Shown here: one piece after another, positions 12,830 to 33,352 of the stretch
Numbering within the stretch: position 1 is the stretch's first letter
Layout: every line of letters starts with the position of its first letter
DNA from: Aliarcobacter sp.
GTDB lineage: Bacteria > Campylobacterota > Campylobacteria > Campylobacterales > Arcobacteraceae
Reading direction: 5' to 3'
NCBI GenBank assembly: GCA_028688995.1
Contig: JAQTXB010000002.1
Location: forward strand, 186,001 to 250,000
DNA: 64,000 nt
Position numbers and translations under genes: made by a program
Notes under the pieces: generated by a model
What the model was told of the DNA's origin: nothing
Databases searched by the model: none
What the model saw: the letters and a program-made list of their open reading frames with translations, nothing else

Positions 12830-12853
12830 AAGTAGAGATTTTTATCTCTACTT
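12830..12853 (+). terminator. rho-independent terminator after flagellin
   Basis: The stem AAGTAGAGAT pairs with ATCTCTACTT (10 bp, loop TTTT) and is followed by TTTC. It lies 14 bases after the flagellin stop codon. Its distal arm overlaps the stop end of the convergent maf gene (12848), so it may also slow transcription arriving from that side, although the minus-strand T run is poor. Confidence 0.88.
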
Positions 12854-17698: not shown

Positions 17699-19093
17699 GT
17701 GCGTAAAATTGAGGACATATATTTTGATAATTTTGATGAAGCATTAAAAATAGCTGAAGAACAAAATGTATTTGGTCCATATAATAATTTACAAATATGC
17801 TACTATGATGGTCCTATAAGAAAAAAAAATTTAAAAAATTTAATTCATTTACCTCTCAATAATTTTTCAGAAACTCTTATTCACTTAGGAACTAGAATTC
17901 CTACAAAAATTATTCATGATAATAAAAATTTAGTAGAGTTCGAACTAAATAATTTTTTAGAAAAAAAAGAAAAGATTCATTTAGATTTAAAAAATAAAAT
18001 TCTAAAAAAACATCTTAATTTTAATGAAAAACTTCGTATTTACATTAGTGCAGAATATGGTGGAAAAGTTGTTTTAAGAACTTATAAATTTTTATCTAAA
18101 TTATTTAATGAAAATGGCTTTGATGTCTATTTTGATATTAATGATGAATTAACTCTAATGGATGATTATAGAAGATCAAAATCTATCGAAGAATTTAATC
18201 CTCATTTAACATTTAATATTAACAGACTAAGAAATGAACAAATACATCCTGATACTTTTAATTTTATTTGGTTTATGGATCCAACTTTAATATTATTTGA
18301 TGATTCATCCCTTAATCTAAGAAAAAGAGATTATATATTTTATATAGGAAATGAAATATATAGTGCTTTAAAAAATAAAAAAATTCCAGAAGAAAAAATC
18401 ATACACCAATTTTTAACTCCTGATTATAATATATTTAAATTTTCTGGAAATATAAAAAAAGAGAATAAAGTTATATTTGTTGGACAAAATTATTTTGAAG
18501 TAATTGAACCTACTAAAAGTTATAAAAACCATCCTGTTGTAAATGATCTTACAAATTTATTTAATAATAATGAAATTACTTTTGAAAAATTAAATGAATT
18601 AAAAGAAAAATATTCATCAACAATTAAAAGAGATGAACATATAGAAGTATTTATATATCCAGCTGTTGTTCGACAAGAAATTGTCAAATGGATTTGCCAA
18701 CAAGATAAAATTAAAGTCGAAATATACGGTGAAGGTTGGAATAATATAGTTGAAACTAAAACTTTCTCAAAAGGAGTGATTAAATCAGAAGAAAAACTAA
18801 ATGAAATCTATAATAGTGCAAAATACTCATTAGTTGTACACTCAAGTTTTATGTACATTCCTAAATTATTTGAAAGTAGTGCAGCAAATTGTATCCCTTT
18901 AGTTTATAGAGGAATTACTACATTAGACGATTTTAAACATAATAAAAATGTTTTAACTTTTTCAGATAAAAAAAGTCTTTATAACTCTTTAGATAAAAAG
19001 ACGGAAGAATCACCCATAGAAATAAGTAAACAAATTTCAACAAAATCCATTTTAGATAAAATATTATCAATTATTCAAAAGGAATTCAAATAG
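17699..19093 (+). CDS. glycosyltransferase, CgeB / group 1-like
   Basis: A 464-residue protein. The C-terminal third looks like a GT-B nucleotide-sugar domain: VEIYGEGWNN, the NEIYNSAKYSLVVHSS segment, then PKLFESSAANCIPLVYRG, which matches the end-region of CgeB-like glycosyltransferases (E near the nucleotide site, then an AxGxxPL-like turn). The middle has RIYISAEYGGKVVLRTYKFL and NFIWFMDP. The start is GTG with AGGAGA upstream. It is the first gene of the long plus-strand operon. An A9 run at 17821-17829 lies early in the gene. Donor and acceptor are unknown. Confidence 0.72.
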   Translation: MRKIEDIYFDNFDEALKIAEEQNVFGPYNNLQICYYDGPIRKKNLKNLIHLPLNNFSETLIHLGTRIPTKIIHDNKNLVEFELNNFLEKKEKIHLDLKNKILKKHLNFNEKLRIYISAEYGGKVVLRTYKFLSKLFNENGFDVYFDINDELTLMDDYRRSKSIEEFNPHLTFNINRLRNEQIHPDTFNFIWFMDPTLILFDDSSLNLRKRDYIFYIGNEIYSALKNKKIPEEKIIHQFLTPDYNIFKFSGNIKKENKVIFVGQNYFEVIEPTKSYKNHPVVNDLTNLFNNNEITFEKLNELKEKYSSTIKRDEHIEVFIYPAVVRQEIVKWICQQDKIKVEIYGEGWNNIVETKTFSKGVIKSEEKLNEIYNSAKYSLVVHSSFMYIPKLFESSAANCIPLVYRGITTLDDFKHNKNVLTFSDKKSLYNSLDKKTEESPIEISKQISTKSILDKILSIIQKEFK

Positions 19094-20082
19094 TGAAAAA
19101 AATATTAATTGTAGGAAGTAACTCTTTTTCTGGTTCAAATTTTGTAAATAATCAATTGAATGAGGATTATGAAGTATTTGCAACAAGTAGGTCATCAGAA
19201 TTAAACAATGTATTTTTACCATATAAAAAGAATTCAAGATTAAATAATCTTCATTTCTCTCAACTTGATTTAAATAAAAATTTAGATGAATTAATGAATT
19301 TAATAAAAAAAGAAAAAATCTCTCAAATAGTAAACTTTGCTGCACAAAGTATGGTAGGACAAAGTTGGGATACACCTGAACATTGGTATATGACAAACAC
19401 TGTTTCAACAATAAAATTTCATAATCAATTAAAAAATTTAGATTTTTTGGATAAATACGTTCATATTTCTACTCCAGAGGTATATGGTTCATGTGAGGGT
19501 CTAATCAAAGAACATAGAAATTATAATCCAAGCACTCCTTATGCAACATCAAGAGCAGCTGCTGACATGAGTTTAAAAAATTTTTATGACACTTATAATT
19601 TCCCAGTAGTTTTTACAAGAGCTGCAAATGTATTTGGAGAACATCAACAACTATATAGAATCGTACCTAAGGCTATTATTTCTTTTTTAATTAAAGAAAA
19701 AGTACCTTTACATGGTGGAGGAAAATCTATTAGATCATTTATTCACATGGATGATGTATCAAAAGCAACAAACCTAATATTGAATAATGGAAATATAGGA
19801 GATATTTATCATATATCAACCAAACAAAATATTTCAATTAAATCATTAGTTGAAATGATTGCTAAACAATTAAATATACCTTTTGAAGAAAACGTAGAAA
19901 TTACAGAAGATAGAAAAGGAAAAGATAGTGCATATTTACTGGATAGTAGTAAATTAAGAGAATCACTTAATTGGCAAGACACAATATCTTTAGAAAAAGG
20001 TATTGAGAAAACTATTAGTTGGGTGAAAGATAATTTAGAAGAACTTTTAAAACAACCCATGAATTATATACATAAACAATAA
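19093..20082 (+). CDS. NAD-dependent epimerase/dehydratase, 4,6-dehydratase-like, with Arg in place of the catalytic Lys
   Basis: Extended SDR of the nucleotide-sugar type: VGSNSFSGSNF at the NAD site, NFAAQSMVGQSWDTP (as in dTDP-glucose or GDP-mannose dehydratases), and STPEVYGS. The YxxxK motif reads YATSR at residues 150-154 (codon 19552-19554 is AGA), so the catalytic Lys is replaced by Arg. RSFIHMDDVSKA is the usual C-terminal block. The start is GTG at 19093, overlapping the preceding TAG by one base, with AAAGGA upstream. It probably acts on an NDP-sugar of the flagellar glycan. Confidence 0.83.
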   Translation: MKKILIVGSNSFSGSNFVNNQLNEDYEVFATSRSSELNNVFLPYKKNSRLNNLHFSQLDLNKNLDELMNLIKKEKISQIVNFAAQSMVGQSWDTPEHWYMTNTVSTIKFHNQLKNLDFLDKYVHISTPEVYGSCEGLIKEHRNYNPSTPYATSRAAADMSLKNFYDTYNFPVVFTRAANVFGEHQQLYRIVPKAIISFLIKEKVPLHGGGKSIRSFIHMDDVSKATNLILNNGNIGDIYHISTKQNISIKSLVEMIAKQLNIPFEENVEITEDRKGKDSAYLLDSSKLRESLNWQDTISLEKGIEKTISWVKDNLEELLKQPMNYIHKQ

Positions 20083-20090
20083 GGTAAAAA

Positions 20091-21029
20091 ATGAAAAATA
20101 TATTAATAACTGGTGGAACAGGCTACGTTGGAACACTATTAACAGAAACTTTACTAAAAGAAGGTCATAAGATTACTGTTGTTGATACAATGTGGTTCGG
20201 TAACTATTTAGAGGAACATAAAAATCTAACTTTAATTAAAACTGATATTTTAGATATAGATTCTATTCCAATGGAAGGAATTGATACAATTTTTCATCTT
20301 GCAAATATTGCAAATGACCCAACAGGAGATTTAAATTCTAAACTTACATGGGAAGTAAATGTATTAGCTTCAAAATTATTAGTAGAAAAAGCAATAAAAA
20401 GTGGAGTTAAACAGTTTATCTATGCAAGTAGTGGAAGTGTTTATGGTGTTAAAGAAGAAGATCAAGTAACGGAAGATTTAGATTTAATACCAATTAGTGA
20501 TTACAATAAAACTAAAATGATTAGTGAAAGAGTATTTTTAAGTTATAAAGACCAGATAAATACTGTAATTATTAGACCTGCTACAGTTTGTGGTTATAGT
20601 AAAAGAATGAGACTAGATGTATCTGTAAATATGCTTACGATGCAAGCTTTAACAAATAAAAGAATTACCGTGTTTGGAGGAAATCAAACAAGACCAAATA
20701 TACATATACAAGATATGGTTAATGTATATTTACATTTTTTAAAAAATAATACTCTAACAGGAATATATAATGCTGGTTTTGAAAATATTTCTATTTTGGA
20801 TATAGCACAGAAAGTTGCTAATAAAATAAATGCTGAAATTATTGTTAGTGAATCTAATGATCCAAGGTCATATAGACTTAACTCAGATAAACTTCTTCTT
20901 ACAGGATTTAAACCTCAATTTACAGTTCAAACTGCAATTGATGAAATTAGTGAAAATTATAATAAAGGTATTTTAAAAGATGAAGATAAATATTATAATT
21001 TGAAAGTAATGAAAGAATTAGGATTATAA
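20091..21029 (+). CDS. NAD-dependent epimerase/dehydratase
   Basis: Extended SDR with TGGTGYVG at residues 7-14, FHLANIANDP, YASSGSVYG and an intact YNKTK catalytic motif. The C-terminal part has RPNIHIQDMVNVY. It has 312 residues. Similar proteins epimerise or reduce nucleotide-activated sugars. It is spaced 8 bases after the previous SDR and ends 1 base before the methyltransferase gene, so co-expression is clear. Substrate unknown. Confidence 0.86.
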   Translation: MKNILITGGTGYVGTLLTETLLKEGHKITVVDTMWFGNYLEEHKNLTLIKTDILDIDSIPMEGIDTIFHLANIANDPTGDLNSKLTWEVNVLASKLLVEKAIKSGVKQFIYASSGSVYGVKEEDQVTEDLDLIPISDYNKTKMISERVFLSYKDQINTVIIRPATVCGYSKRMRLDVSVNMLTMQALTNKRITVFGGNQTRPNIHIQDMVNVYLHFLKNNTLTGIYNAGFENISILDIAQKVANKINAEIIVSESNDPRSYRLNSDKLLLTGFKPQFTVQTAIDEISENYNKGILKDEDKYYNLKVMKELGL

Positions 21030-21030
21030 A

Positions 21031-21690
21031 ATGGGTATAGAAATTGATTTATTAGAAAATTATCCTAAAACAAAAAGAGATTTAAAACAAAGAGCTAATG
21101 AAAAAACGCAAGAAGATAGAAATATAGCTAGAAAGTTTGGTCAAGATTTTTTTGATGGTGATAGAAAACATGGTTATGGTGGGTTTAACTATATGAGTAG
21201 ATTTTGGCAACCTGTTATACCCACATTTATAAAACATTTTAATTTAAATGAAAATTCTAAAGTTTTAGATGTAGGTTGTGCAAAAGGTTTTATGCTTTTT
21301 GATATGAAAGAAGCTATTCCAAATATAACTATTGAAGGAATAGATATCTCTTCTTATGCCATTGAAAATGCAAAAGAAGAAATAAAACAATTTTTAAGAG
21401 TTGGAAATGCAAAAGAACTTCCTTATGAAGATAATTCATTTGATGTTGTAATTTCAATAAACACTATTCATAATCTAGAAAAAAAAGAATGTGCAAAAGC
21501 ATTACAAGAAATTCAAAGAGTTAGTAGAGGGAAAAGCTTTATTACAGTTGATGCATATAGAAATGAAGAAGAAAAAGAAGCTATGTATGCTTGGAATCTA
21601 ACTGCTAAAACTATTATGAGTGTGGATGAATGGATTGCTTTTTTTGAAGAAGTTGGATATACAGGTGATTACTATTGGTTCATCCCTTAA
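21031..21690 (+). CDS. class I SAM-dependent methyltransferase
   Basis: A 219-residue methyltransferase. SAM motif I is VLDVGCAKGFML (about 77-88), the acidic strand-2 motif is IEGIDIS, and ELPYEDNSFDVVISINTIHN is motif IV of the Methyltransf_11 type. The first 60 residues are charged and include RKFGQDFFDGDRKHGYGG, a leader seen in methyltransferases of glycan clusters. It lies between the SDR and the E1 alpha gene. It probably methylates a sugar or sugar-linked group; the position is unknown. Confidence 0.84.
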   Translation: MGIEIDLLENYPKTKRDLKQRANEKTQEDRNIARKFGQDFFDGDRKHGYGGFNYMSRFWQPVIPTFIKHFNLNENSKVLDVGCAKGFMLFDMKEAIPNITIEGIDISSYAIENAKEEIKQFLRVGNAKELPYEDNSFDVVISINTIHNLEKKECAKALQEIQRVSRGKSFITVDAYRNEEEKEAMYAWNLTAKTIMSVDEWIAFFEEVGYTGDYYWFIP

Positions 21691-21699
21691 AGAGTATAG

Positions 21700-22677
21700 A
21701 TGAATAATATAGATATTAAAGAATTAAAACAAATTTATTTAACTGCTTATAAAATAAGAAATACTGAAGAAAGAATTGCAAATAAATATCATGAACAAGA
21801 GATGAGATGCCCTACACATTTAAGTATAGGACAAGAATTAATTCCTGCTATTTATGCTCAATTTGTAGATAATTCAGATTATGCAGTAAGTACCCATCGA
21901 GCACATGCACACTATCTTGCAAAAGGTGGGGATTTAAATGCAATGATTGCTGAGATTTATGGAAAAAGAACTGGTTGTTCACATGGAATGGGTGGTTCAA
22001 TGCATTTAATTGATAAAAGTGTTGGATTTATGGGAAGTACAGCAATTGTAGGTGGTACTATACCAATTGGGGTAGGTCTTGCATTATCTATTCAAATAAA
22101 AAATGAAAATAGAATAAGTAGCATTTTTTTAGGTGATGGAGCAACAGAAGAAGGAGTCTTTTATGAGTCTGTTAATTTTTCTGTAGTAAGAGAACTTCCT
22201 GTAATTTTTATATGTGAAAATAATTTATATTCTGTATATTCAAATTTAGAAGTAAGACAACCTAAAAATAGAAAAATCTATGAACTTGTAAAAGCAATGG
22301 GTATAAAATCTTCACATGCAGATGGTTATGATATTGAAGATTCGTATTGTAAATTAAAAGAAGCACTTAATTATGTAAAAAATGAAAAAAAACCATTTTT
22401 TATTGAGCTGGATACGTATAGATTTAGAGAACATTGTGGTCCAAATTTTGACAATAATATTGGATATAGAGAGATTAGTGAATATGAAGAGTTTTTAAAA
22501 AAAGACCCTTTGTTAAGATTAAAAGAATATCTTGAAACTAACTCTTCAAAAAAGCTTTTAGCTGAAGAAGAAAATATCATAAACAAGAATATAGAAGAAG
22601 CATTTACTTTTGCTAAAAATTCTCCTTGGCCTCAATACAAAGATATAAATACTTATCTTTATAAGGATAATAAATGA
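21700..22677 (+). CDS. thiamine-diphosphate dehydrogenase E1 alpha-like subunit
   Basis: Resembles the alpha subunit of pyruvate or acetoin dehydrogenase. The cofactor motif runs from GDG at 145-147 to NN at 174-175. Other family blocks are STHRAHAHYLAKGGD, CSHGMGGSMHL and the IVGGTIPIGVG segment. It has 325 residues. The beta subunit follows with a 4-base ATGA overlap. No lipoyl E2 or E3 gene is near. In this sugar operon it may transfer a two-carbon acyl unit from pyruvate to a keto sugar, as the unrelated single-chain YerE does in yersiniose synthesis (inference). Confidence 0.87.
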   Translation: MNNIDIKELKQIYLTAYKIRNTEERIANKYHEQEMRCPTHLSIGQELIPAIYAQFVDNSDYAVSTHRAHAHYLAKGGDLNAMIAEIYGKRTGCSHGMGGSMHLIDKSVGFMGSTAIVGGTIPIGVGLALSIQIKNENRISSIFLGDGATEEGVFYESVNFSVVRELPVIFICENNLYSVYSNLEVRQPKNRKIYELVKAMGIKSSHADGYDIEDSYCKLKEALNYVKNEKKPFFIELDTYRFREHCGPNFDNNIGYREISEYEEFLKKDPLLRLKEYLETNSSKKLLAEEENIINKNIEEAFTFAKNSPWPQYKDINTYLYKDNK

Positions 22678-23726
22678 GAAGCTTAACTTTTGCACAAGCA
22701 ATAAATGAAGCATTAGAAACAGCTCTTAGAATTGATGAAACAGTAATAAAGTATGGACTAGGTGTTACTGATCCATATGGTGTGTTTGGAACAACAAAAA
22801 ATTTAGAAGACAAATTTGGTTCTTCAAGAGTTTTTGATATGCCTACATCTGAAAATGGAATGACTGGTGTTGCAATTGGTGCAGCAATTGGTGGATTAAA
22901 ACCTGTAATGACACATCAAAGATTAGACTTTTTCCTTCTCGCTATGGATCAAATTGTAAATAATGCTGCTAAATTCCATTTTATGTTTGGAAAAGAAGTT
23001 AATGTACCAATAACAATTAGATTAATTATTGGTCGAGGATGGGGACAAGGTCCAACCCATGCTCAAAGTTTACAATCTTGGTTTGCCCATATTCCAGGTC
23101 TTAAAGTAGTAATGCCAACAACAGTAAAAGATGCAAAAGGTTTATTACTTTCAAGTATATTTGATCCAAATCCTGTTATCTTTTTAGAACATCGATGGCT
23201 TCATAATATGATAGGAGAAGTTGATGAAAGTGATGATTTTAGAGTAGAAATAGGAAAAGCTGAAATATTAAAAGAAGGTAAAGATATAACTATTGTTTCT
23301 ATGTCATATATGAGTATAGAAGCAATTCATGCAGCTAAAGAACTTGAAAAATATAATATTTCATGTGAGATTATAGACTTAAAAACCATAAGCCCTATTG
23401 ATTGGAATACTATTCATAAATCAATTGAAAAAACGAAAAGATTAATTGTTTTAGATACAGCTAGCGAATTTGGTGCAATAGGAAATGATATTGTTGCAGA
23501 TATTTCTATGAAATATTTTAGTGTTTTAAAATCTGCTCCAAAAATCATTGCTTTACCAAATATTCATGCACCAACGAGTTATTCTTTAACTAAAGATTAT
23601 TACAAAGATGCAAAAGATATTATTCTTGAAATATCAAAAATATTTAATATGCAAATTAATTTGTATAATATGATGAATAAAGTTCATCATGATATACCAG
23701 GAGAATGGTTTAAAGGACCATTTTAA
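22674..23726 (+). CDS. thiamine-diphosphate dehydrogenase E1 beta-like subunit
   Basis: Partner of the alpha subunit encoded immediately upstream. SENGMTGVAIGAA holds the Glu that activates the thiamine ring. RGWGQGPTHAQSLQSWFAHIPGLKVVMP and the FLEHRWLHN block are typical of E1 beta chains. The transketolase C-terminal domain follows from about residue 200 (KDITIVSMSYM). It has 350 residues, a little longer than usual; the extra tail ends in PGEWFKGPF. The start overlaps the alpha stop, which suggests 1:1 translation. Confidence 0.87.
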   Translation: MRSLTFAQAINEALETALRIDETVIKYGLGVTDPYGVFGTTKNLEDKFGSSRVFDMPTSENGMTGVAIGAAIGGLKPVMTHQRLDFFLLAMDQIVNNAAKFHFMFGKEVNVPITIRLIIGRGWGQGPTHAQSLQSWFAHIPGLKVVMPTTVKDAKGLLLSSIFDPNPVIFLEHRWLHNMIGEVDESDDFRVEIGKAEILKEGKDITIVSMSYMSIEAIHAAKELEKYNISCEIIDLKTISPIDWNTIHKSIEKTKRLIVLDTASEFGAIGNDIVADISMKYFSVLKSAPKIIALPNIHAPTSYSLTKDYYKDAKDIILEISKIFNMQINLYNMMNKVHHDIPGEWFKGPF

Positions 23727-23745
23727 AATAAAATTAGGAGAAATT

Positions 23746-24417
23746 TTGAAAGCAAAAGAAGATCAAAACCAATGTCAATTTGATAATTATGAAGAAAATA
23801 AATTTTCATTTGGACCTTTTTCATCTCATATTTTAAGAGATGACCCTAGACATATAGTTTTTATGTTGTCTAGATATAAATTCGTTTCAAAAATGCTAGA
23901 TGGTAAAAAACGAGTTGTTGAAATTGGATGTGGAGATGCAATAGGAATGCCTATTATTACTCAAACAGTTGATTATGTTTTAGGATGTGATTGGGAAGAG
24001 TTATTAATGGAAGGTAATAAAAAAAGAAATAAAAATCTAAATTGTGATTTTTTCACATGCGATATTACAAATACTATTCCTGATATTTCAAAAGGTAAAT
24101 TTGATGCTGCCTTTTCATTAGATGTAATTGAACATATTCCAAATGAAAATGAACATAAATATTTTGAAAATATTACAAAAGCATTAAAAGAGGATGGAGT
24201 ATTTATTATTGGAACACCAAATATAACAGCTAATCAATATGCTTCTGTGTTAAGTAAAGCTGGTCATATAAATTTACATTCACATAAAACTTTAAAAGAA
24301 AAAATGGAAAAATATTTTAAAAATTGTTTTTGTTTTTCAATGAATGATGAAATGGTACATACAGGATTTGGACCAATGGCTCATTATATTTTTGTTATGG
24401 GTGTTGGGCTGAAATAA
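23746..24417 (+). CDS. class I SAM-dependent methyltransferase
   Basis: The SAM motif is VVEIGCGDAIGMPI, followed by LGCDWEE and FDAAFSLDVIEHIPNENEH; the VIEHI block is typical of Methyltransf_11/UbiE-like enzymes. I chose the TTG at 23746, four bases after AGGAGA and just behind the E1 beta stop, giving 223 residues. An ATG at 23689 in frame would start inside the E1 beta gene with no ribosome binding site. It is the second of three methyltransferases in the operon. The end is directly joined to the next ATG. Confidence 0.82.
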   Translation: MKAKEDQNQCQFDNYEENKFSFGPFSSHILRDDPRHIVFMLSRYKFVSKMLDGKKRVVEIGCGDAIGMPIITQTVDYVLGCDWEELLMEGNKKRNKNLNCDFFTCDITNTIPDISKGKFDAAFSLDVIEHIPNENEHKYFENITKALKEDGVFIIGTPNITANQYASVLSKAGHINLHSHKTLKEKMEKYFKNCFCFSMNDEMVHTGFGPMAHYIFVMGVGLK

Positions 24418-25578
24418 ATGATAATTAAGCAAAATAACAAATGTGCAGTTTGTTCCAATACAGTTGAAAGTATTATTAAATTACCTAACTTTCCTTTAAC
24501 TGGAATATTTTCAGATAAATTTGATGCAAATTTTCACACTTTTAATCAAGAACTGCAATATTGTGATAATTGTAAACATTGTCAATTAAAGAATATTATT
24601 GATCCTAATATTTTGTATAGTGATCAATATTCTTTTCTTACTTCAAATAGTTCAAATTCTAGAAATTCAACAAGTAAATTTATTAATTTTATAAATAAAA
24701 ATTTACATAATATCCATAGTATTTTAGAATTTGGGTGTAATGATTTATATTTTCTCAAACAATTTGAGAAAGAAGGAAAAGAATGTATAGGGATAGATCC
24801 CATTTTAAATAAAATCAACAATGATTCAACAATTAAAGTTATTGCAGATTATGTTGAAAATATAGATTTTAGTAATTATTTATTAAAACCTCCCTGCTTA
24901 ATTTGTTCTCAACATACAATTGAACATATACCAGATATAAGAAAAACTTTAGAAAAATTAAAAAGTATTTCAAATGATGAAACAGTTTTTGCTTTTGAAT
25001 TTCCTAATTTTGATTTGTTAATTCAAAATAGAAGATTTGACCAAATTTTTCATGAACATGTTCACTATTTTAGTTTAGACTCTTTTTTTTATCTTCTAAA
25101 AGAATTATCATTTGAAGTAATTGATTATGAGTTTAATTTTGATAAATGGGGAACTATTTATATTCTTTTTAAAAATTCTAAAAATAATAATTTTTCTCAT
25201 AAAACTAAGAATTTAAATAAAGAAGTAATATTAAATGCCTATAAAAATTTTAAAAGTAGTATTGAGAACTGTATAGATATATTAGAACAATTTAAACAAG
25301 AAGAAAAATATGCTTATGGCGCGTCACTGATGTTACCAAGTTTAAATTATCATTTTAACAATTATTTAACCAAATTAAATTGTATTTTAGATGATGATGA
25401 AAATAAAAAAAATAAAAAATATATCAATATAGATATTGACATAGACATTGAAAAAAACAATGTTCAATATGATAAATCTGTAATTCTAATTACAGCATTA
25501 GAACACACAAAAAATATAAGTAAAAAATTAATTAATAAAAATACTAAAAATATTATAGTGCCAATAAATATATACTGA
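24418..25578 (+). CDS. sugar C-methyltransferase-like protein (zinc-binding N-terminus)
   Basis: It has the three-part build of NDP-hexose C-methyltransferases such as TylCIII. First comes an N-terminal zinc knuckle with CAVCSN and YCDNCKHCQL. A SAM domain follows (ILEFGCNDLYFL, then SQHTIEHIPD). The signature IFHEHVHYFS contains the His implicated in catalysis in this family. The C-terminal domain (about 260-386) is the usual Methyltransf_14-like fold but is more divergent and Asn/Lys-rich, with a repeated ID stretch. It would add a methyl branch to a keto sugar. It follows the previous gene with no gap. Confidence 0.83.
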   Translation: MIIKQNNKCAVCSNTVESIIKLPNFPLTGIFSDKFDANFHTFNQELQYCDNCKHCQLKNIIDPNILYSDQYSFLTSNSSNSRNSTSKFINFINKNLHNIHSILEFGCNDLYFLKQFEKEGKECIGIDPILNKINNDSTIKVIADYVENIDFSNYLLKPPCLICSQHTIEHIPDIRKTLEKLKSISNDETVFAFEFPNFDLLIQNRRFDQIFHEHVHYFSLDSFFYLLKELSFEVIDYEFNFDKWGTIYILFKNSKNNNFSHKTKNLNKEVILNAYKNFKSSIENCIDILEQFKQEEKYAYGASLMLPSLNYHFNNYLTKLNCILDDDENKKNKKYINIDIDIDIEKNNVQYDKSVILITALEHTKNISKKLINKNTKNIIVPINIY

Positions 25579-25589
25579 GGATAGAAAAA

Positions 25590-26354
25590 ATGGATTTAAA
25601 TATAAAAAACAAGAAAGCGCTTATTACAGGAGCTAGTGGCGGATTGGGTAAAGCAATAGCTCATTCTTTAATTGAAGAAGGAGTAGAAGTTTGTATTGTA
25701 TCTAGAAGTTTAGAAAAAATGGAGAATTACTTAAAAAATTATAATGGTAAACACTTAGCATTAGAATATGACTTAATGGAAGAGAATGCACCAACGCAAA
25801 TGGTAAATGAAATGCTTGAAAAGTTTGGAACACCAGATATTATAATACATAATGTGGGTGGTACATTAGATATTAAAGACCCTTTTTGTAGCTTAGAAGA
25901 TTGGAGAAGGGTTTATAGATTTAATCTTGAAATAGCTCTAGAAATTAATCAAATTTTGATTCCAAAACTTCAAGAAAAGAAATGGGGAAGAGTTATTCAT
26001 ATATCTTCAATTGCATCATTAGAAAATCAAGGACCAATTACATATTGTTCAATAAAAGCAGCATTAACAGCTTATACAAGAAGTATTGGAAGAGTTGTAT
26101 CAGCTGATGGAGTTAGCGTGTCAGCAGTACTTCCAGGTGCTGTTTATACTGAAGGTGGCTATTGGGATTACACATCAAAAAATAATCCAGAACATGTAGA
26201 AAAATATTTAAATGAAAGAATGGCTATTAAAAGATTTGGAACATTGGAAGAAATTTCTAAAATTACTACATTCCTTGCATCTGATTACGCAGGGTTCATA
26301 GTTGGCTCATCTTTTGTTGTAGATGGTGGTCAAGGAAAATCATTTACTTACTAA
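25590..26354 (+). CDS. short-chain dehydrogenase/reductase, FabG-like
   Basis: Classical SDR of 254 residues. TGASGGLG binds NAD(P), HNVGG is the NNAG-equivalent, and the Ser-Tyr-Lys triad is in HISSIASLENQGPITYCSIKAA. The end has the usual SSFVVDGGQG. It lies between the C-methyltransferase and the split transketolase genes, so a sugar or short polyol substrate is more likely than a fatty acid. It has 26 bases of spacing to the next gene. Confidence 0.87.
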   Translation: MDLNIKNKKALITGASGGLGKAIAHSLIEEGVEVCIVSRSLEKMENYLKNYNGKHLALEYDLMEENAPTQMVNEMLEKFGTPDIIIHNVGGTLDIKDPFCSLEDWRRVYRFNLEIALEINQILIPKLQEKKWGRVIHISSIASLENQGPITYCSIKAALTAYTRSIGRVVSADGVSVSAVLPGAVYTEGGYWDYTSKNNPEHVEKYLNERMAIKRFGTLEEISKITTFLASDYAGFIVGSSFVVDGGQGKSFTY

Positions 26355-26380
26355 AAAAATTAAATTCACTAAGGTTTAAA

Positions 26381-27160
26381 ATGAATAACGATTTAAGAAA
26401 AAAAATTGTAGAACTGGTTTGTAAAGCAAAAGAAGGTCATATACCAAGCACATTCTCTATTGTTGATATTATTTCAACTTTATATAAAAATGTTTTAAAA
26501 GTTAATCCTAAAAATCCAAATTGGGAAGATAGAGATTATTTTATTTTAAGTAAAGGACATGGAGGATTAGCACTATTTGTTGTTTTACATAAATATGGAT
26601 TTTTAACGGATGAACAACTAGAATCATATTCTACTCTAGGAAGTATACTTGGTGGACATCCTGATGTTACAAAAGTTCCTGGGGCAGAAGCTTCAACAGG
26701 TAGCTTAGGACATGGATTATCATTTTCTCTTGGAATTGCATTAGGACATAAAATCAATAAAGCAGAGAATAGAGTTTTTACACTTATTGGAGATGGAGAA
26801 TCACAAGAAGGTACAATATGGGAAGCAGCACAAGTTGGAGTAAATCTAAAACTTGGGAACTTATGCATAATTGTTGATAATAATCAAAGTGCTGCGCAGT
26901 TAATGCCTTTACAAAATCCTGCAAAAAGATGGGAAGCATTTGGATGGAATGTATTTGAAATTGATGGACATGATGAACAAGAACTTATAAATATCATCAA
27001 TAAAATAGATTTTAAGGGAAATATTCCTAGCGTAATTATTGCAAATACAATAAAAGGAAAAGGTGTAAAAATGACTGAAGGTCATGGACAATGGCACCAT
27101 AAAATACCAAATAAAGAAGAATATAAAATTCTGATGGAGGAATTAAGTGGAAAAAATTAA
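26381..27160 (+). CDS. transketolase, N-terminal subunit (split enzyme)
   Basis: 259 residues covering only the thiamine-diphosphate-binding half of transketolase. Seen are a GH pair at 19-20, LSKGHGGLALF, STGSLGHGLSFSLG and the cofactor motif from IGDGESQEG to VDNNQ. The ending has GKGVKMTEGHGQWHHKIP. The C-terminal half is a separate gene that begins inside this one (14-base overlap). Split transketolases transfer or remove two-carbon ketol units; the apulose-4-phosphate enzyme is a known split example. Here it may build or trim a sugar in the glycan pathway. Confidence 0.88.
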   Translation: MNNDLRKKIVELVCKAKEGHIPSTFSIVDIISTLYKNVLKVNPKNPNWEDRDYFILSKGHGGLALFVVLHKYGFLTDEQLESYSTLGSILGGHPDVTKVPGAEASTGSLGHGLSFSLGIALGHKINKAENRVFTLIGDGESQEGTIWEAAQVGVNLKLGNLCIIVDNNQSAAQLMPLQNPAKRWEAFGWNVFEIDGHDEQELINIINKIDFKGNIPSVIIANTIKGKGVKMTEGHGQWHHKIPNKEEYKILMEELSGKN

Positions 27161-28067
27161 TATAAGAAAACAATTTGCAAACACTGTACTTGAAATTGGT
27201 AAAAAAGATGATAGATTAACTGTACTTCTTGGAGATATTGGTCATTTTAATATGATTCCTTTTGCAGAAGCATGTGAAGGGCGTTTTTATAATGTTGGAA
27301 TTTGTGAACCTACTATCATTAGCATGGGTGCAGGACTATCTCGAGTAGGTAAGATTCCTGTTATCCATACTATTAATCCATTTATTGTAGAAAGATCATT
27401 CGAACAACTTAAATTAGATTTTGTTTATCAAAAACTTGCAGGGAATATTATAACAGTTGGTAGTTTGTTTGATTATAGCCAACTGGGATGTACACATCAC
27501 TGTTATGGTGATTTTGCATTATTAAAAACTCTATTTGATGTACAGATTATTTATCCTGCAACAAATGAAGAATTTGATACTTTATTTAAACAAACGTATA
27601 ACAATGATAAATTAACATTCTTTAGAATTCCTGAGATTTCTCATAATATTCATATTAATGAACCTATAAAATTTGGGAAAGCTATAAAAATAACAGAAGG
27701 TAAAGATTTAACAATTGTAGTTACAGGTTCACAATTAAATAATGTAAAAAAAGTTCAAGAAAAATTAAAAGAGAGTAACATAGAAGTAGAAATTATTTAT
27801 ATTCATACTATTAGACCTTTAGATAAAGAATCTATATTTTCAAGTGTTAATAAAACTAAAAAGGTTGTTGTTGTTGAAGAGCATGGTGAAAATGGAGGAT
27901 TAGGAGAAGATGTTTTAAAAGAAATATATAAAATAAATGATTTACAATTTGAACATATCTGTGTTAAAGGTGGTTTTATTCATCAATATGGAACATTTGA
28001 TGAACTATTAAATATTGCTGGACTAACTTATGAAAATATTTTAAAAGTTAGTAAAACTCTTTTATAA
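27147..28067 (+). CDS. transketolase, C-terminal subunit (split enzyme)
   Basis: 306 residues matching the pyrimidine-binding and C-terminal domains. VLLGDIGHFN opens the pyrimidine domain. GICEPTIISMGAGLS contains the Glu that activates the cofactor. The C-terminal regulatory fold starts near residue 180 (DLTIVVTGSQ) and contains VVVEEHGENGGLGE. The GTG start at 27147 has an excellent GGAGG seven bases upstream, inside the N-terminal subunit gene. Active enzyme should need both chains. Confidence 0.88.
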   Translation: MEKINIRKQFANTVLEIGKKDDRLTVLLGDIGHFNMIPFAEACEGRFYNVGICEPTIISMGAGLSRVGKIPVIHTINPFIVERSFEQLKLDFVYQKLAGNIITVGSLFDYSQLGCTHHCYGDFALLKTLFDVQIIYPATNEEFDTLFKQTYNNDKLTFFRIPEISHNIHINEPIKFGKAIKITEGKDLTIVVTGSQLNNVKKVQEKLKESNIEVEIIYIHTIRPLDKESIFSSVNKTKKVVVVEEHGENGGLGEDVLKEIYKINDLQFEHICVKGGFIHQYGTFDELLNIAGLTYENILKVSKTLL

Positions 28068-28086
28068 TAAAAAGGAATAATTTTTT

Positions 28087-29136
28087 ATGGCAACAAGCAC
28101 ATCATTTCACCAAAATCACGAACTATTTACGGAACAAGCTTATAAAAATAATAATTTATTACCCGATAGATATGTTTTTGTTTTAACTAATCAATGTAAT
28201 TTAAGATGTGAATTTTGTTTTCAAGAAAAAGCCAAAATAAGTACAAACTTAACAACTCAAGAATGGTTAAACTTTGTTGATGAAATACCAGATTATGCAA
28301 GAATAACTTTTACAGGAGGAGAACCCTTTATGTTTGAAGGTTTTGAAGAAATATTTAAAAAAGTTGCTTCAAAACATACTTGTAATGTAATATCTAATGG
28401 GTTACTTTTAAGTGACAAAATTATAGATTTATTACTTTCTTATGAAAATTTCAAAGTTCTATCTATCTCTTTAGAAGATAAATATAATAAAACTAGAGAC
28501 GTTAGATTAAAGAAATGGCAGGAAGCAGAGATTCAAATTAAAAAATTTACTAAATTAAAAAAAGAAAGAAATTTAGAAACGCTTCTCGATATAAAAACTG
28601 TAGTTCTTGATGAAAATGCAAACTCATTATACGAGATGTATAAATATGCAAAAGAAGAGTTAGGTTGTGATACCCACTCTTTTCAATTCTTAAAAGGTTC
28701 TCCATTACAACATTCGGATAAAATGTATGCGCTAGATACAATATATGTACCTAATTTGGCTTACGAATATAAGAATTTTGATATTATTAAAAAAGAATTA
28801 GAAAAAATTGCTAAAGAAAATCCACCTAGTGTATTCGTACATCCTAAATTTATAGAATTAAAAGAAGATGAAGACTTTTCTAAATTGGATATTATAAATA
28901 ATCCTATTCTAAAAAAAGAATATTTTCAAGCTTGTAAATTCCCATGGTCTAGTGTACATATTAATTATGATGGAAGCCTTTACCCTTGTATGTCTATATC
29001 AATGGGAAATATAAAAAACCTATCTCTAAAAAATATAATTTTTGGAAAAGACTTCACTAATTTTAAGAATATTATAAAAAAAGAAGAATTGGTAAATGGC
29101 TGTAATAGATGTGGATGGTTAAGGCTAAAGAAATGA
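28087..29136 (+). CDS. radical SAM protein with SPASM-like C-terminus
   Basis: The 4Fe-4S site CxxxCxxC is at Cys37, Cys41 and Cys44 (CNLRCEFC), and FTGGEPFMF is the SAM-binding GGE motif. The C-terminal part has CKFPWSSVHINYDGSLYPC and then NGCNRCGW, a cysteine pattern of auxiliary cluster (SPASM/twitch) domains. It has 349 residues. Its position between the split transketolase and an SDR suggests radical chemistry on a sugar or on a peptide-linked group, but the reaction cannot be told. Oxygen-sensitive, as are all members. Confidence 0.85.
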   Translation: MATSTSFHQNHELFTEQAYKNNNLLPDRYVFVLTNQCNLRCEFCFQEKAKISTNLTTQEWLNFVDEIPDYARITFTGGEPFMFEGFEEIFKKVASKHTCNVISNGLLLSDKIIDLLLSYENFKVLSISLEDKYNKTRDVRLKKWQEAEIQIKKFTKLKKERNLETLLDIKTVVLDENANSLYEMYKYAKEELGCDTHSFQFLKGSPLQHSDKMYALDTIYVPNLAYEYKNFDIIKKELEKIAKENPPSVFVHPKFIELKEDEDFSKLDIINNPILKKEYFQACKFPWSSVHINYDGSLYPCMSISMGNIKNLSLKNIIFGKDFTNFKNIIKKEELVNGCNRCGWLRLKK

Positions 29137-29990
29137 AAAATATAGTTATATTAGGGGATAGTAGCTTTATTGGATGCAATATCTCTAAAAAACTTAATAA
29201 TGAATTTAATATATTTGGGTTTAATTCTAAAAATTGTAATTTATTAGAGTATAAACATATTGAAAAAACTCTAAGAACTATAGAGAATATTGATTGTATA
29301 ATATTTTGTTCTTCAATAACAAGACTCAAAGAAAATACTATATTTAGTTTAGAAAAAAATGTTCTAATGTCTATAAATGTAGCAAAATTTATAGAAAATT
29401 ATCCCATAAAACAATTAATATTTTTAAGTAGCATTGATATATATGGTAATACAGAAGAAGAATATACTGAGGACTTAGTACCTAATCCTAACGATTATTA
29501 TGCAAAGTCTAAAAGTATTTCCGAAATAATTCTAAAAGAAGCAATAAAAAAACATAATACAAAACTATTTATTCCAAGATTAAGTGGAGTATTTGGTAAA
29601 AATGACAATAATAAAAGCACAATATATGATTTAGTATCTTCGGCATTAAATAAAAAAGAGATAACTCTTTTTAATAATGGGGAAGATACACGAGATTATA
29701 TATATATTGATTTTTTGATTGAAATAATAAGAAATGCTATAAATAGAGAATATGAGGGTATCTTAAATATTGCAACAGGAAAAAGTTATTCAATTAAAAC
29801 CATATCTCAATTAATTATTAATTTAATTGATAATAATGTTAAATTAATCCTAAAAAATGATAAAAATAATTCACGAAATAAAAAAATTAATTTTAATATA
29901 TCAAAATTAAAAAATAGTAATTTAATTACTAATAATCTAGATATTAAAGATTATATCAAATTATACATAGGGTGTTTTAATGAAAAATAA
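29133..29990 (+). CDS. NAD-dependent epimerase/dehydratase
   Basis: Extended SDR, 285 residues from the ATG at 29133, which overlaps the preceding TGA as ATGA and has AAGG upstream. An in-frame ATG at 29109 would add eight residues but lies deeper in the radical SAM gene. Motifs: ILGDSSFIGCN, LSSIDIYG, and YYAKSK with an intact catalytic Tyr and Lys. The protein is Asn/Lys-rich and very AT-biased towards its end. It probably acts on a nucleotide sugar; substrate unknown. Confidence 0.82.
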   Translation: MKNIVILGDSSFIGCNISKKLNNEFNIFGFNSKNCNLLEYKHIEKTLRTIENIDCIIFCSSITRLKENTIFSLEKNVLMSINVAKFIENYPIKQLIFLSSIDIYGNTEEEYTEDLVPNPNDYYAKSKSISEIILKEAIKKHNTKLFIPRLSGVFGKNDNNKSTIYDLVSSALNKKEITLFNNGEDTRDYIYIDFLIEIIRNAINREYEGILNIATGKSYSIKTISQLIINLIDNNVKLILKNDKNNSRNKKINFNISKLKNSNLITNNLDIKDYIKLYIGCFNEK

Positions 29991-30888
29991 TATTCAAAGT
30001 ATTCATTTAGAACTTATTTCAAAATGTAATTTAAAATGTGTTCACTGTGAATTAAACAGAAACTCTTATGAATCAAAAGGTAATAAAATTAATTTTGAAG
30101 ATACAATTAATCTACTAAAAGAATTAAAGCCTAAAGAAAAAAATAGTATAAGTCTTATCTTACAAGGAGTAGGAGAAGCTACTTTACATCCTCAATTTGA
30201 AGAATTCTTAAAAATCGGTATTGAATTAGGATACAGAGTTTCTACAACATCAAATCTTCTTGCTTGGAAAAAGAATAAATATAAATCTTTCTTAGATATA
30301 GGATTAAATTTACTAACTGTTTCTGTTGATACAATTAATCAAGAACTTACAGAAAAAACAAGAAAAGGGACTAATGTTGAGAAATTAAAAGAAAATTTAA
30401 TTTACCTTTCTCAATATTATTCAGAAAAACTCTATATTTATACAGTGGTAAGTGATATTACTATTGATTATATTGATGAACTTTATGAATTTATTAAACA
30501 ACTTAATGTACAAAAGTGGCAATTTATCTATTTGTTGAATGAAAATGGAACTCAAGGTATTTCAAAAGAAAATAAAAATAAGCTAGCAAAAAAAGTTGAT
30601 AAATTTAAGGATATTAATAATTTAGTATTACCAATAGAACAAAATGAGAGTTATTGTCAACAACCATTTAATATATTACATATCAATGCAATGGGTTATA
30701 TCATGCCATGTTGCCTTTATTGGGATCATAATTTAATTAATTTTGGAAATATACGAGATAAAAATATAAATCTTCAATTTAATTCTATTAAATTTAACAC
30801 ATTTAGAAAAGAAATGTCATTGGGCAAAGCTGAAATATGTACCACATGTACCCTATATAAACCTTATGCAAAAAATATGGATAATTAA
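29980..30888 (+). CDS. radical SAM/SPASM protein
   Basis: Second radical SAM gene of the operon. The cluster site is Cys16, Cys20 and Cys23 (CNLKCVHC), with LQGVGEATLHP as the SAM-binding region. The C-terminal cysteines include the YIMPCCLYW block and CTTCTLY, as in SPASM domains. It has 302 residues. It overlaps the previous gene by 11 bases and the next by 1. The two radical SAM proteins are not close copies of each other, so they probably perform different steps. Confidence 0.85.
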   Translation: MKNNIQSIHLELISKCNLKCVHCELNRNSYESKGNKINFEDTINLLKELKPKEKNSISLILQGVGEATLHPQFEEFLKIGIELGYRVSTTSNLLAWKKNKYKSFLDIGLNLLTVSVDTINQELTEKTRKGTNVEKLKENLIYLSQYYSEKLYIYTVVSDITIDYIDELYEFIKQLNVQKWQFIYLLNENGTQGISKENKNKLAKKVDKFKDINNLVLPIEQNESYCQQPFNILHINAMGYIMPCCLYWDHNLINFGNIRDKNINLQFNSIKFNTFRKEMSLGKAEICTTCTLYKPYAKNMDN

Positions 30889-31934
30889 TGAAAGCAGCTG
30901 TTTTAAATAATACAAATACTCCGCTAAAGATAGAAAGAATAAAATTTAATACGTTACAAAGAGGCCAAGTTCTTGTTAGAATTGCCTATAGTGGGGTTTG
31001 TCACTCTCAACTAATGGAAGTACGAGGGAAAAGAGGTGAAGACAAATGGTTACCTCATTTATTAGGTCATGAAGCAACAGGAATAGTAGAAGAGATAGGG
31101 GAAGGTGTAACTAAAGTTAAACTTGGTGATAAAGTTGTTCTGGGTTGGATTGAGTCAGAAGGAATTGATGCACAATGTGCTATATATAATAATGGAGATA
31201 AAATCATTAATTCAGGAAAAGTAACAACTTTCAATGAATTATCAGTTATATCTGAAAATAGAATAATAAAACTTCCAGACACAATTCCAATGGATGTAGG
31301 TGTTTTATTTGGTTGTGCAATACCAACTGGTGCAGGAATAGTAATAAATGAAATTAAACCAAAAGAAAATACAACTATTGCTATTTTTGGATTAGGGGGG
31401 ATAGGTCTTAGTGCACTTATGGCTACTAAACTTTACAATTTTGAAAAAATAATCGCAATAGATGTTGAAGAAAAAAAACTTCAATTAGCAATAGATTTTG
31501 GAGCAACACATACAATTAATTCAAAAAAACAAAATATAAAAGATGAAATCAATAAATTAACAAATAATTGTGGAGTTGATTATAGTGTTGAAGCAACTGG
31601 ACTATCAACTATAATAGAACTTGCATTCAAAAGTGTAAAAAATAATGGTGGATTATGTGTATTTGCTTCTCATCCTCAAAAAGGAGATTTAATATCAATT
31701 GATCCCTTTGATTTAATTTGTGGAAAAAATATAAAAGGAACTTGGGGTGGTGCGTGTAAACCAGATATAGACTTACCAATGTTTTTTAAACTGTATGAAG
31801 AGGGAAAACTTCCATTAGAAAAACTTCTTGAAAAAAAGTACACTTTAGATGAAATAAATATAGCATTGGATGATTTAGAAAATAGAAAAGTTACAAGACC
31901 TTTAATTGAAATAAATAAAAGTTTGGGAAAATGA
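30888..31934 (+). CDS. zinc-dependent alcohol dehydrogenase without the structural zinc site
   Basis: Medium-chain dehydrogenase. The catalytic-zinc residues Cys38 (GVCHSQ), His61-Glu62 (LLGHEATG) and a later Cys in FGCAIPTGAG are present. NAD is bound by GLGGIGLSALM. The four-cysteine lobe for the structural zinc, usually just after the catalytic half-site, is absent: the region GWIESEGIDAQCAIYN has a single Cys. It has 348 residues. It would oxidise or reduce a sugar or polyol carbonyl in the pathway (inferred). The start overlaps the previous stop by one base. Confidence 0.86.
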   Translation: MKAAVLNNTNTPLKIERIKFNTLQRGQVLVRIAYSGVCHSQLMEVRGKRGEDKWLPHLLGHEATGIVEEIGEGVTKVKLGDKVVLGWIESEGIDAQCAIYNNGDKIINSGKVTTFNELSVISENRIIKLPDTIPMDVGVLFGCAIPTGAGIVINEIKPKENTTIAIFGLGGIGLSALMATKLYNFEKIIAIDVEEKKLQLAIDFGATHTINSKKQNIKDEINKLTNNCGVDYSVEATGLSTIIELAFKSVKNNGGLCVFASHPQKGDLISIDPFDLICGKNIKGTWGGACKPDIDLPMFFKLYEEGKLPLEKLLEKKYTLDEINIALDDLENRKVTRPLIEINKSLGK

Positions 31935-33352
31935 AAAAGACTTCATTAGTATATGGAAATTTTAATATCCTTCATCCAGGTCATTTAAGATTACTAAAAT
32001 TTGCAAAAGAGAGTTCTGATTACTTAATAGTAGCTATAAATTCAAATAAAACAACTAAAGATCTTAATTTATTTGATGAACAAACTAGATTAGAATCAAT
32101 AAAAGCAACTTCCTATGTAGATGAAGCTTTTATATTAAATGAAGATATTCTTGAATATATAAAAAGAGAAAAACCTTTTTTTATAGTTAAAGGAAAAGAA
32201 CATGAAAATGAAGAAAATTTAGAAGAAGAAATATTAAAAGAATATGGGGGAAAACTCCTTTTCACATCAGGAGAAATTGGATTTTCATCACTTGACTTAC
32301 TAAATAAAGATTTTGAAATAAACTATTCTTTTATTAATCATTCAAATGAATATATAAAAAGACATAACATTAACAAAAAACAACTTGAAAGATATATAGA
32401 AGATTTCTCAAAACTTAATATACTAGTAATCGGTGATACAATTGTTGATGAATATATTACTTGTAATCCAATAGGAATGAGTCAAGAAGACCCTACAATA
32501 GTTGTAACACCTATATCAAGTAAGAAATTTATTGGTGGAGCAGCAATTGTAGCATCTCATGCTAAAACTTTAGGAGCAAAGGTTTCTTATATTTCAGTAT
32601 TAGGAGATGACGATAATTTCAAATTTACAAATACTTATTTAGAAGAATTAAATATAAATGCTTTATTATATAAAGATTCAACTAGACCCACTACCCTAAA
32701 ACAAAGATTTAGAGCCCATAATAAAACTCTTCTTAGAGTAAATCACTTAAAACAGCACTACATAAATAAAGAATTTGAAAAAAAAATAATTAGTAAAATA
32801 AAAAAAATAAAAAATTTAGACCTTATTATATTTTCAGATTTTTCCTACGGGGTATTAACAAAAAATTTAATTGATACTATTTCAGAATTTGCAAAAAAAG
32901 AATCTATAAAAATTGTTGCTGATTCCCAAAGTTCTTCTCAAACTGGAGATATTTCGAAATTTAAAGATATGGATATTGTTACTCCTACAGAAAGAGAAAT
33001 TAGATTAGCATTAAATAATTTTGAATCAGGATTAGTTATTTTATCAAAGAAATTACATAAAAAATCAAATCCAAAATATATTTTTACTACTTTAGGAAGT
33101 GAAGGTATCATGATTTATAATTCTCAAGAAAATGATTTATTAACAGATAATATTTTAGCATTAAATACAAATGCAAAAGATGTAAGTGGGGCAGGAGATT
33201 CTTTATTAACTTGCTCCTCAATGGCATTAGCAGTAGGAGCTACTATTTGGCAGAGTGCTTATTTAGGCTCAATTGCAGCAGCAATTCAAGTAAGTAGAGT
33301 AGGTAATACTCCTATAAAAAAAGAAGAAATTTTAAAGGAACTAAACTTTTGA
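31931..33352 (+). CDS. nucleotidyltransferase / PfkB sugar kinase fusion (HldE domains in reversed order)
   Basis: Residues 1 to about 130 are a cytidylyltransferase-fold domain with GNFNILHPGH (9-18), like the C-terminal half of HldE. Residues about 155-473 are a PfkB/ribokinase-type kinase with GGAAIVASHAKTLGAKV and the anion-hole motif DVSGAGDSL, like the N-terminal half of HldE. Classical HldE (RfaE) has the kinase first. The protein should phosphorylate a sugar phosphate at C1 and then activate it with a nucleotide. It overlaps the ADH gene by 4 bases. A heptose or heptose-like substrate is an inference from the family. Confidence 0.85.
   Translation: MKKTSLVYGNFNILHPGHLRLLKFAKESSDYLIVAINSNKTTKDLNLFDEQTRLESIKATSYVDEAFILNEDILEYIKREKPFFIVKGKEHENEENLEEEILKEYGGKLLFTSGEIGFSSLDLLNKDFEINYSFINHSNEYIKRHNINKKQLERYIEDFSKLNILVIGDTIVDEYITCNPIGMSQEDPTIVVTPISSKKFIGGAAIVASHAKTLGAKVSYISVLGDDDNFKFTNTYLEELNINALLYKDSTRPTTLKQRFRAHNKTLLRVNHLKQHYINKEFEKKIISKIKKIKNLDLIIFSDFSYGVLTKNLIDTISEFAKKESIKIVADSQSSSQTGDISKFKDMDIVTPTEREIRLALNNFESGLVILSKKLHKKSNPKYIFTTLGSEGIMIYNSQENDLLTDNILALNTNAKDVSGAGDSLLTCSSMALAVGATIWQSAYLGSIAAAIQVSRVGNTPIKKEEILKELNF

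Follow-up and report, generated by a model that had tools for sequence, protein, structure and literature searches.

Why would a single sugar operon encode two different two-subunit thiamine diphosphate (ThDP) enzymes, one resembling the E1 component of pyruvate dehydrogenase (PDH) and the other a transketolase split into two halves? The operon lies in a 64,000-nucleotide stretch of an Aliarcobacter sp. genome (GenBank assembly GCA_028688995.1, contig JAQTXB010000002.1, positions 186,001 to 250,000), which is called the window here and in whose numbering its genes are placed. The E1-alpha-like and E1-beta-like subunits are encoded at 21700-22677 and 22674-23726, and the N-terminal and C-terminal halves of the transketolase (TK-N and TK-C) at 26381-27160 and 27147-28067, all on the plus strand. 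With slightly better than even confidence, we favor the explanation that the E1 pair is an orphan ThDP carboligase by which the acetyl group of pyruvate most likely reaches a keto-heptose. The split transketolase, in this view, is its sister enzyme for glycolyl transfer.

Two ThDP enzymes without a lipoyl transferase

Both pairs have the expected domains. E1-alpha matches PF00676 (E=1.6e-59) and TK-N, the ThDP pyrophosphate half, matches PF00456 (E=7.8e-46); E1-beta and TK-C each match PF02779 and PF02780. A preliminary description of this DNA had claimed that the two pairs retain the GDG...NN cofactor motif and the activating glutamate, and that no lipoyl transferase (E2) or dihydrolipoyl dehydrogenase (E3) lies nearby, and both statements are borne out. 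The ThDP motif reads GDGATEEG...CENN from residue 145 of E1-alpha and GDGESQEG...VDNN from residue 137 of TK-N, the activating residues are Glu60 of E1-beta and Glu54 of TK-C, and the Pfam matches of the operon hold no E2- or E3-type gene.

A genome-wide check, which covered E2 only, found no PF00198 protein that could pair with this E1 anywhere in the source genome (2.95 Mb in 31 contigs, 96.5% complete); 10 control genomes gave matches. Only four proteins with a Transket_pyr domain are encoded genome-wide: those of the E1 pair and the split transketolase, DXS, and another, ordinary transketolase on contig C12 (~640 amino acids, with the canonical THDSIGVGEDGPTHQ). Genes for POR-family oxidoreductases are also present. 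Thus, neither pair is needed for a PDH complex or for the pentose phosphate pathway.

The obvious assignment of the E1 pair, to a pyruvate or other 2-oxoacid dehydrogenase complex whose E2 is encoded elsewhere, was rejected as largely refuted by the missing E2, and we consider it very improbable. Complete E1 domains and motifs are what such an assignment would predict, and the incompleteness of the assembly makes an overlooked E2 conceivable. However, the POR-family genes also argue against it, as does the replacement of the HSMSD phospho-loop of PDH E1-alpha by HCGP. The E1 scores fall below the curated PDH cut-offs (274.6 versus 393.85 for TIGR03182, and 284.1 versus 321 for NF006667). A further argument comes from G241, a genome of the same family that holds the sole close E1 relative in the phylum sample (E1-beta 83% identical). 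Its E2 gene adjoins open reading frames (ORFs) of 890 and 476 amino acids that read as aceE and lpd, ~0.87 Mb away from the E1 pair. Because the window genome has no E2 and that of G241 sits in a distant aceE-aceF-lpd locus, this pair seems to be an orphan in both.

A distinct clade of E1 pairs

A scan of genome contigs, surveys of drawn genomes, and a plasmid search, with E1-beta aligned over its full length including the tail, yielded 14 further E1 pairs (43-83% identity). They come from G241 (L035), a Neomarinimicrobiota metagenome-assembled genome (MAG; L051) and two genomes of the same class (L082 and L083), a Rhodocyclaceae MAG (L052), an Actinomycetota MAG (L053), Polynucleobacter (L056), Planctobacterium (L054) and five genomes of its class (L073-L077), and an Azospirillum plasmid (L086, 43%). 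The clade ranges over Campylobacterota, Neomarinimicrobiota, and Proteobacteria, with one member in Actinomycetota. The gene seems widespread but rare, since a sample of 369 genomes from the class of G373 contained 6 carriers (E<=1e-90), and a sample of 171 from that of G370 contained 3.

In a maximum-likelihood tree of joined E1-alpha and E1-beta sequences, the 15 clade pairs stand apart from 13 Campylobacterota PDH-type pairs and 3 distant plasmid pairs (the branch dividing the 15 from all others has support 99/99, and the PDH-type branch 100/100). About 50 alignment columns are diagnostic: 14 or all 15 of the clade members agree on a residue that no PDH-type protein has there. In E1-alpha these differences include His66 (Tyr in PDH), Tyr180 (Gly or Ala in PDH), an EHCGP loop where PDH has the phospho-loop GHSMSD, and the signature THRxHAHYLAKGG. 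E1-beta carries HQR at 81-83 and WGQ at 123-125, and it is extended at the C terminus by a tail that ends in an invariant Gly-Pro-Phe. When E1-beta was modeled alone with AlphaFold2 from 13 clade sequences, the core was good (mean pLDDT 82) and the tail, residues 336-350, fell below 50. That this end is invariant yet disordered in the lone-subunit model suggests that it may pack on a partner.

Two distant matches from Opitutales/Verrucomicrobia (L059 and L061) were excluded from the clade as fused-type E1 enzymes, each being one ORF of ~700 amino acids. No relative was found when viral contigs were scanned with E1-beta, and phage records gave nothing beyond distant AcoA-like and transketolase-like matches. 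One gammaproteobacterial cluster (L073, in G391) has two E1-beta genes ~9 kb apart (537-1670 and 9961-11016), 40% and 60% identical to that of the window, as if two different two-carbon acceptors or donors were served. A distant, orphan-looking E1 pair (38-39%, with a GPY tail) is encoded on Streptomyces griseofuscus plasmid pSGRIFU1 (L088, 14989-17035) in a natural-product cluster, among regulator, condensation, acyl carrier, and ketosynthase genes. Also, an E1-beta gene ~44% identical is present on 12 Clostridioides difficile plasmids.

A recurrent heptose-type cassette

The neighbors of the E1 pair offer hints regarding its acceptor. Immediately upstream are SDR1 (19093-20082), a short-chain dehydrogenase/reductase (SDR) whose best PDB relatives are dTDP-glucose 4,6-dehydratases and which is an RmlB-like relative of such nucleotide-sugar enzymes; SDR2 (20091-21029), of the sugar-nucleotide epimerase/dehydratase kind, with PDB entry 6vo6 as its top match (E=1.1e-37) and counterparts of 61-86% identity in six distant cassettes; and MT1 (21031-21690), an S-adenosylmethionine (SAM) methyltransferase conserved beside E1 at full length in seven loci. 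A GmhA-like SIS-domain sugar-phosphate isomerase is encoded divergently on the minus strand (17069-17638). At the far end of the operon are a zinc-type alcohol dehydrogenase (ADH; 30888-31934; PF08240 and PF00107) that is a candidate carbonyl reductase, the HldE-like NT-PfkB protein (31931-33352; PF01467 and PF00294), and an HddC-like sugar-1-phosphate nucleotidyltransferase (33349-34056). NT-PfkB has the domain order of HldE inverted, with the nucleotidyltransferase N-terminal and the PfkB kinase C-terminal, and this inversion recurs in the related cassettes.

These genes travel with the clade. Near the 14 loci, GmhA-like and NT-PfkB genes occur 9 times each, MT1 7 times, the zinc ADH and HddC-like genes 6 times each, and SDR1 and SDR2 10 times each, although some weak SDR1 and SDR2 matches are one generic SDR counted twice. 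At least two cassette genes are found at 11 of the 14 clade loci and none at any of the 13 PDH-type loci (Fisher p=2.8e-5), a value that overstates independence because the clade loci are kin by descent and transfer, and for which the controls are all from Campylobacterota. The strong matches are not generic, with cross-phylum identities of 57-86% for SDR2, 60-89% for MT1, and 47-80% for SDR1. The order SDR1-SDR2-MT1-E1alpha-E1beta is common to Campylobacterota and genomes of the Neomarinimicrobiota class, and the GmhA-like gene of G241 lies directly upstream of SDR1. Similarly, public annotation places E1 with SIS, kinase, and SDR genes on Azospirillum and Solidesulfovibrio plasmids. No lipoyl E2 was seen beside the clade E1 loci.

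Structural relatives give hints about the sugar that the cassette makes. The nearest PDB entries to the HddC-like protein, 5xhw and 6jq8, are proteins of the 6-deoxy-D-mannoheptose pathway. The SDR2 relative 6vo6 is an entry that we take to be the Campylobacter jejuni heptose C4-dehydrogenase Cj1427. According to PMC10680097, Cj1427 makes GDP-4-keto-heptose. Because of these relatives and that of SDR1, the cassette looks equipped for a 4-keto nucleoside diphosphate (NDP)-heptose, the acceptor type of ThDP acetyl-branching enzymes; the assignment to heptose is probable only. Overall, the best reading is the one that the preliminary description had suggested, in which the acceptor is a carbonyl compound and not lipoate, since there is no E2, an ordinary transketolase is encoded elsewhere, the neighbors are nucleotide-sugar genes, and comparative genomics ties both enzymes to the same heptose-type cassette.

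The split transketolase and its exchange with E1

The two ThDP enzymes had been described as features of one operon. This holds for the window and for the Neomarinimicrobiota locus L051, but the association is not fixed: the G241 cassette has E1 only, and the gammaproteobacterial locus L100 has the transketolase only. TK-C, searched for in 120 relatives, was found only in the window's own genome, and TK-N was detected at 42-44% identity in 6 of 350 gammaproteobacterial genomes. All five TK-N loci inspected, and two more on plasmids, have a sugar context, that is, genes for nucleotide-sugar SDRs, glycosyltransferases, or nucleotidyltransferases.

Locus L100 (G614 contig 27, 5238-13743) is the most instructive, as it carries the split transketolase where other cassettes have the E1 pair. 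Its order is SDR2 (61%), GmhA (33%), SDR1 (56%), TK-N, TK-C, a 203-amino-acid ORF, an APH-like gene, MT1 (44%), ADH (41%), and MT2 (38%), and its genome has no clade E1 (best match 34%). This substitution suggests that the two enzymes bring two-carbon units to a keto-heptose in analogous ways, with E1 supplying acetyl from pyruvate and the transketolase supplying glycolyl.

Two alternatives bear on this enzyme. The first is that it is an ordinary transketolase, placed locally to supply sedoheptulose 7-phosphate or a pentose phosphate to the GmhA-like isomerase. That isomerase gene does belong to the cassette, and the nearest solved relatives are active split transketolases, the activity of the Carboxydothermus enzyme being reported in PMC7661550. 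This supply role is nevertheless rather improbable, given that an ordinary transketolase gene is already present and that the L100 enzyme stands in for an E1, from which no production of sedoheptulose 7-phosphate is expected. Furthermore, human and Carboxydothermus transketolases align with a conserved His in the THAG/SHCG segment, and none of the nine sugar-linked TK-C halves has it; a nearby Asp is also missing from the window TK-C. The missing residues presumably correspond to His461 (donor phosphate) and Asp469 (acceptor 2-OH) of Escherichia coli transketolase, and with these positions changed, altered substrates are likely.

The second alternative, which overlaps with others, is that E1 and the transketolase serve two unrelated sugar pathways that share one glycan island. 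Glycan islands often shuffle, and the E1 cassette of G241 has no counterpart of the window's split transketolase, SDR3, or radical SAM genes. Against this stands the order E1-alpha, E1-beta, methyltransferase, SDR3, TK-N, TK-C, which is repeated at L051 with 37-62% identity. We consider two separate pathways possible, although clearly on the unlikely side.

Small ThDP-type genes were also encountered. At L102 (G630 contig 20, 8661-9789), ORFs of 188 and 196 amino acids lie beside the split transketolase; the larger is an E1_dh match, the other falls in a region of weak E1-beta match, and together they may be a miniature ThDP enzyme that has no third domain. L090, on a Desulfobaculum plasmid, likewise has an additional small ThDP pair.

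A proposed route and the evidence against it

In the route that we favor, the GmhA-like isomerase, NT-PfkB, the HddC-like protein, SDR1, and SDR2 would make a nucleotide-activated keto-heptose. E1-alpha/beta would decarboxylate pyruvate, and the resulting two-carbon acyl carbanion would be passed as acetyl to the ketone of this sugar. The split transketolase would take a glycolyl (hydroxyacetyl) unit from a ketose and add it to a keto-sugar of similar kind. Reductases (SDR3 and the zinc ADH, with an aldo-keto reductase beside the cassette in L051) and methyltransferases would finish the branched or lengthened sugar, and the products might decorate flagellin or another surface glycan. The genes, their motifs, the missing E2, the clade, the recurring cassette, and one transketolase in the place of E1 are direct observations; the formation of carbon-carbon bonds on a sugar is inferred, as are the donors, acceptors, heptose backbone, branch position, and final glycan.

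Several observations weigh against this route, in addition to the kinship of the clade loci. The matches of the GmhA-like (TIGR00441, 112 bits, cut-off 209), HldE-like (TIGR02198, 216 bits, cut-off 345), and HddC-like (NF049965) proteins are all below curated cut-offs, so the backbone could be a sugar other than a heptose. SDR1 departs from 4,6-dehydratases at their usual acidic residue: its TPEVYG motif, invariant in nine of nine members, retains the Glu of the catalytic pair and has Pro for Asp. Only two loci, the window and L051, have both E1 and the split transketolase, and the exchange of one for the other is seen in L100 only. Finally, two aminotransferases are encoded between SDR1 and E1 in L054 and L083 and could consume the 4-ketone.

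These aminotransferases would fit an E1 that couples a 2-oxoacid to a different carbonyl acceptor, such as an open-chain aldehyde, a sugar phosphate, or an attached glycan, or that makes a small acyloin or acyl decoration. For avilamycin and paulomycin, the two-carbon unit has been proposed to be added after attachment of the sugar (PMC4425429), and a distant Streptomyces-plasmid relative lies near adenylation, condensation, and ketosynthase genes rather than sugar genes. The most conserved neighbors of the clade, however, are nucleotide-sugar enzymes, and we regard these other acceptors as doubtful.

Comparison with known systems

The proposed transfer to an activated keto-heptose has parallels among natural-product enzymes. 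The preliminary description had cited the single-chain YerE as precedent, and closer ones exist in the two-subunit AviB1/AviB2 of avilamycin and Pau11/Pau12 of paulomycin (PMC4425429, PMC4753412) and EvdU5/EvdS3 of everninomicin (PMC10338323), E1-like pairs for which acetyl transfer from pyruvate onto a 4-keto sugar has been proposed. Paulomycin is no longer made when pau11 is knocked out, and the paulomycin branch is later reduced by the aldo-keto reductase Pau7 (PMC4753412). By description and context, the window E1 resembles these pairs in having two subunits, lying beside nucleotide-sugar genes, and lacking an E2. Unlike them, with their Gram-positive antibiotic clusters and hexose- or pentose-derived sugars, the clade occurs mostly in Gram-negative surface-glycan islands with heptose-type genes. 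Gram-negative bacteria, in contrast to the Gram-positive producers, were described as recruiting the single-chain YerE for yersiniose (PMC4753412). As proposed for the window E1, YerE uses ThDP to add an acetyl branch to a 4-keto NDP-sugar, in its case for a Gram-negative O-antigen, but YerE is a single-chain flavoprotein of the acetolactate synthase type, whereas the window enzyme consists of two separate E1-type chains. Caryophyllose was considered as a precedent and set aside, as the passages on it name no ThDP enzyme.

The E1 components of PDH and branched-chain 2-oxoacid dehydrogenases share domains, the GDG...NN motif, and the activating Glu with the window E1, which is ~35-40% identical to Campylobacterota PDH-type pairs; the window E1 differs in lacking an E2 and in its clade-specific residues, loop change, and extra C-terminal tail. 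The closest solved relative of the transketolase pair, and the top PDB match of its halves, is the Carboxydothermus hydrogenoformans enzyme (6yak for TK-N, 6yaj for TK-C), which has the same two-gene split; the window TK-C differs in having neither the His nor the Asp that the THAGLTVGEDG segment contains, and in its nucleotide-sugar biosynthetic context. The preliminary description had also cited a split transketolase that handles apulose phosphate; the literature searched gave no paper on that enzyme (AptA/AptB), and the genes around the window pair are those of nucleotide-sugar metabolism. The C. jejuni GDP-heptose pathways (Cj1427, a 4,6-dehydratase, and a guanosyltransferase) yield GDP-4-keto-heptoses, the likely acceptor type, and no ThDP step is described for them in the accessible text of PMC10680097, where the word thiamin is absent.

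The operon and its surroundings

The 17 plus-strand genes at 17699-34056 form one tight operon, with intergenic gaps of -38 to +26 bp; a scan for promoters and terminators gave no enrichment over shuffled sequences. In addition to the two ThDP pairs, the operon encodes one glycosyltransferase, four SDRs, three methyltransferases, two radical SAM/SPASM proteins, the zinc ADH, NT-PfkB, and the sugar-1-phosphate nucleotidyltransferase. The first gene is the glycosyltransferase (17699-19093, PF13524). Between the ThDP pairs are MT2 (23689-24417, PF08241), a SAM methyltransferase with relatives of 38-44% identity in L035, L082, and L100; a methyltransferase of the sugar C-methyltransferase type with an N-terminal zinc-binding domain (24418-25578, PF13489 and PF08421), a 37% relative of which adjoins E1-beta in L051; and SDR3 (25590-26354, PF13561), a short-chain reductase of the classical type whose gene immediately precedes the transketolase, with a 62% identical counterpart at the same position in L051. 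Downstream follow the first radical SAM/SPASM protein (28087-29136; 44% relative in the L074 E1 cluster), SDR4 (29109-29990, PF01370) of the nucleotide-sugar epimerase/dehydratase type, and the second radical SAM/SPASM protein (29980-30888). Both radical SAM proteins match PF04055 and PF13186, and a role as sugar epimerase or dehydrogenase is a possibility.

Because the operon sits between a flagellin ORF (11971-12816, called from its own sequence), a Maf-type glycosyltransferase (12848-14899, with the Maf N-terminal domain PF20157), and a pseudaminic acid cluster whose PseI and PseB score above NCBIfam cut-offs, it looks like part of a flagellin-glycosylation island. The adjacent pseudaminic acid cluster also contains an ATP-grasp enzyme (34046-35200) and, by reading of the sequence, two PseG-like proteins (35197-36135 and 40071-41054).

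Implications

The principle of sugar acetylation by E1-like enzymes is already known. What appears to be new is its heptose setting, together with the cassette found across phyla and the exchange of E1 for a transketolase, as no description of E1 pairs in heptose, O-antigen, or flagellar glycan loci, or of such an exchange, was found in the literature searched, which covered few subscription journals. A bolder proposal, which we put forward tentatively and think unlikely to hold as it stands, is that a mobile heptose-modifying cassette shared by several phyla carries two different split ThDP enzymes as exchangeable modules for carbon-carbon bond formation. The E1 type would place acetyl, and the transketolase type glycolyl, on the same keto-heptose scaffold, giving undescribed surface sugars of nine carbons, or eleven where one sugar is the substrate of both. 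The genetic question raised is whether the choice of split ThDP enzyme in a cassette is by itself enough to fix the two-carbon donor. If the favored route is correct, undescribed branched higher-carbon sugars are to be predicted, and routine annotation of these genes as pyruvate dehydrogenase or transketolase would have to be corrected. E1-type C-acylation of sugars would then reach from a few actinobacterial antibiotics to the surface glycans of many Gram-negative bacteria.

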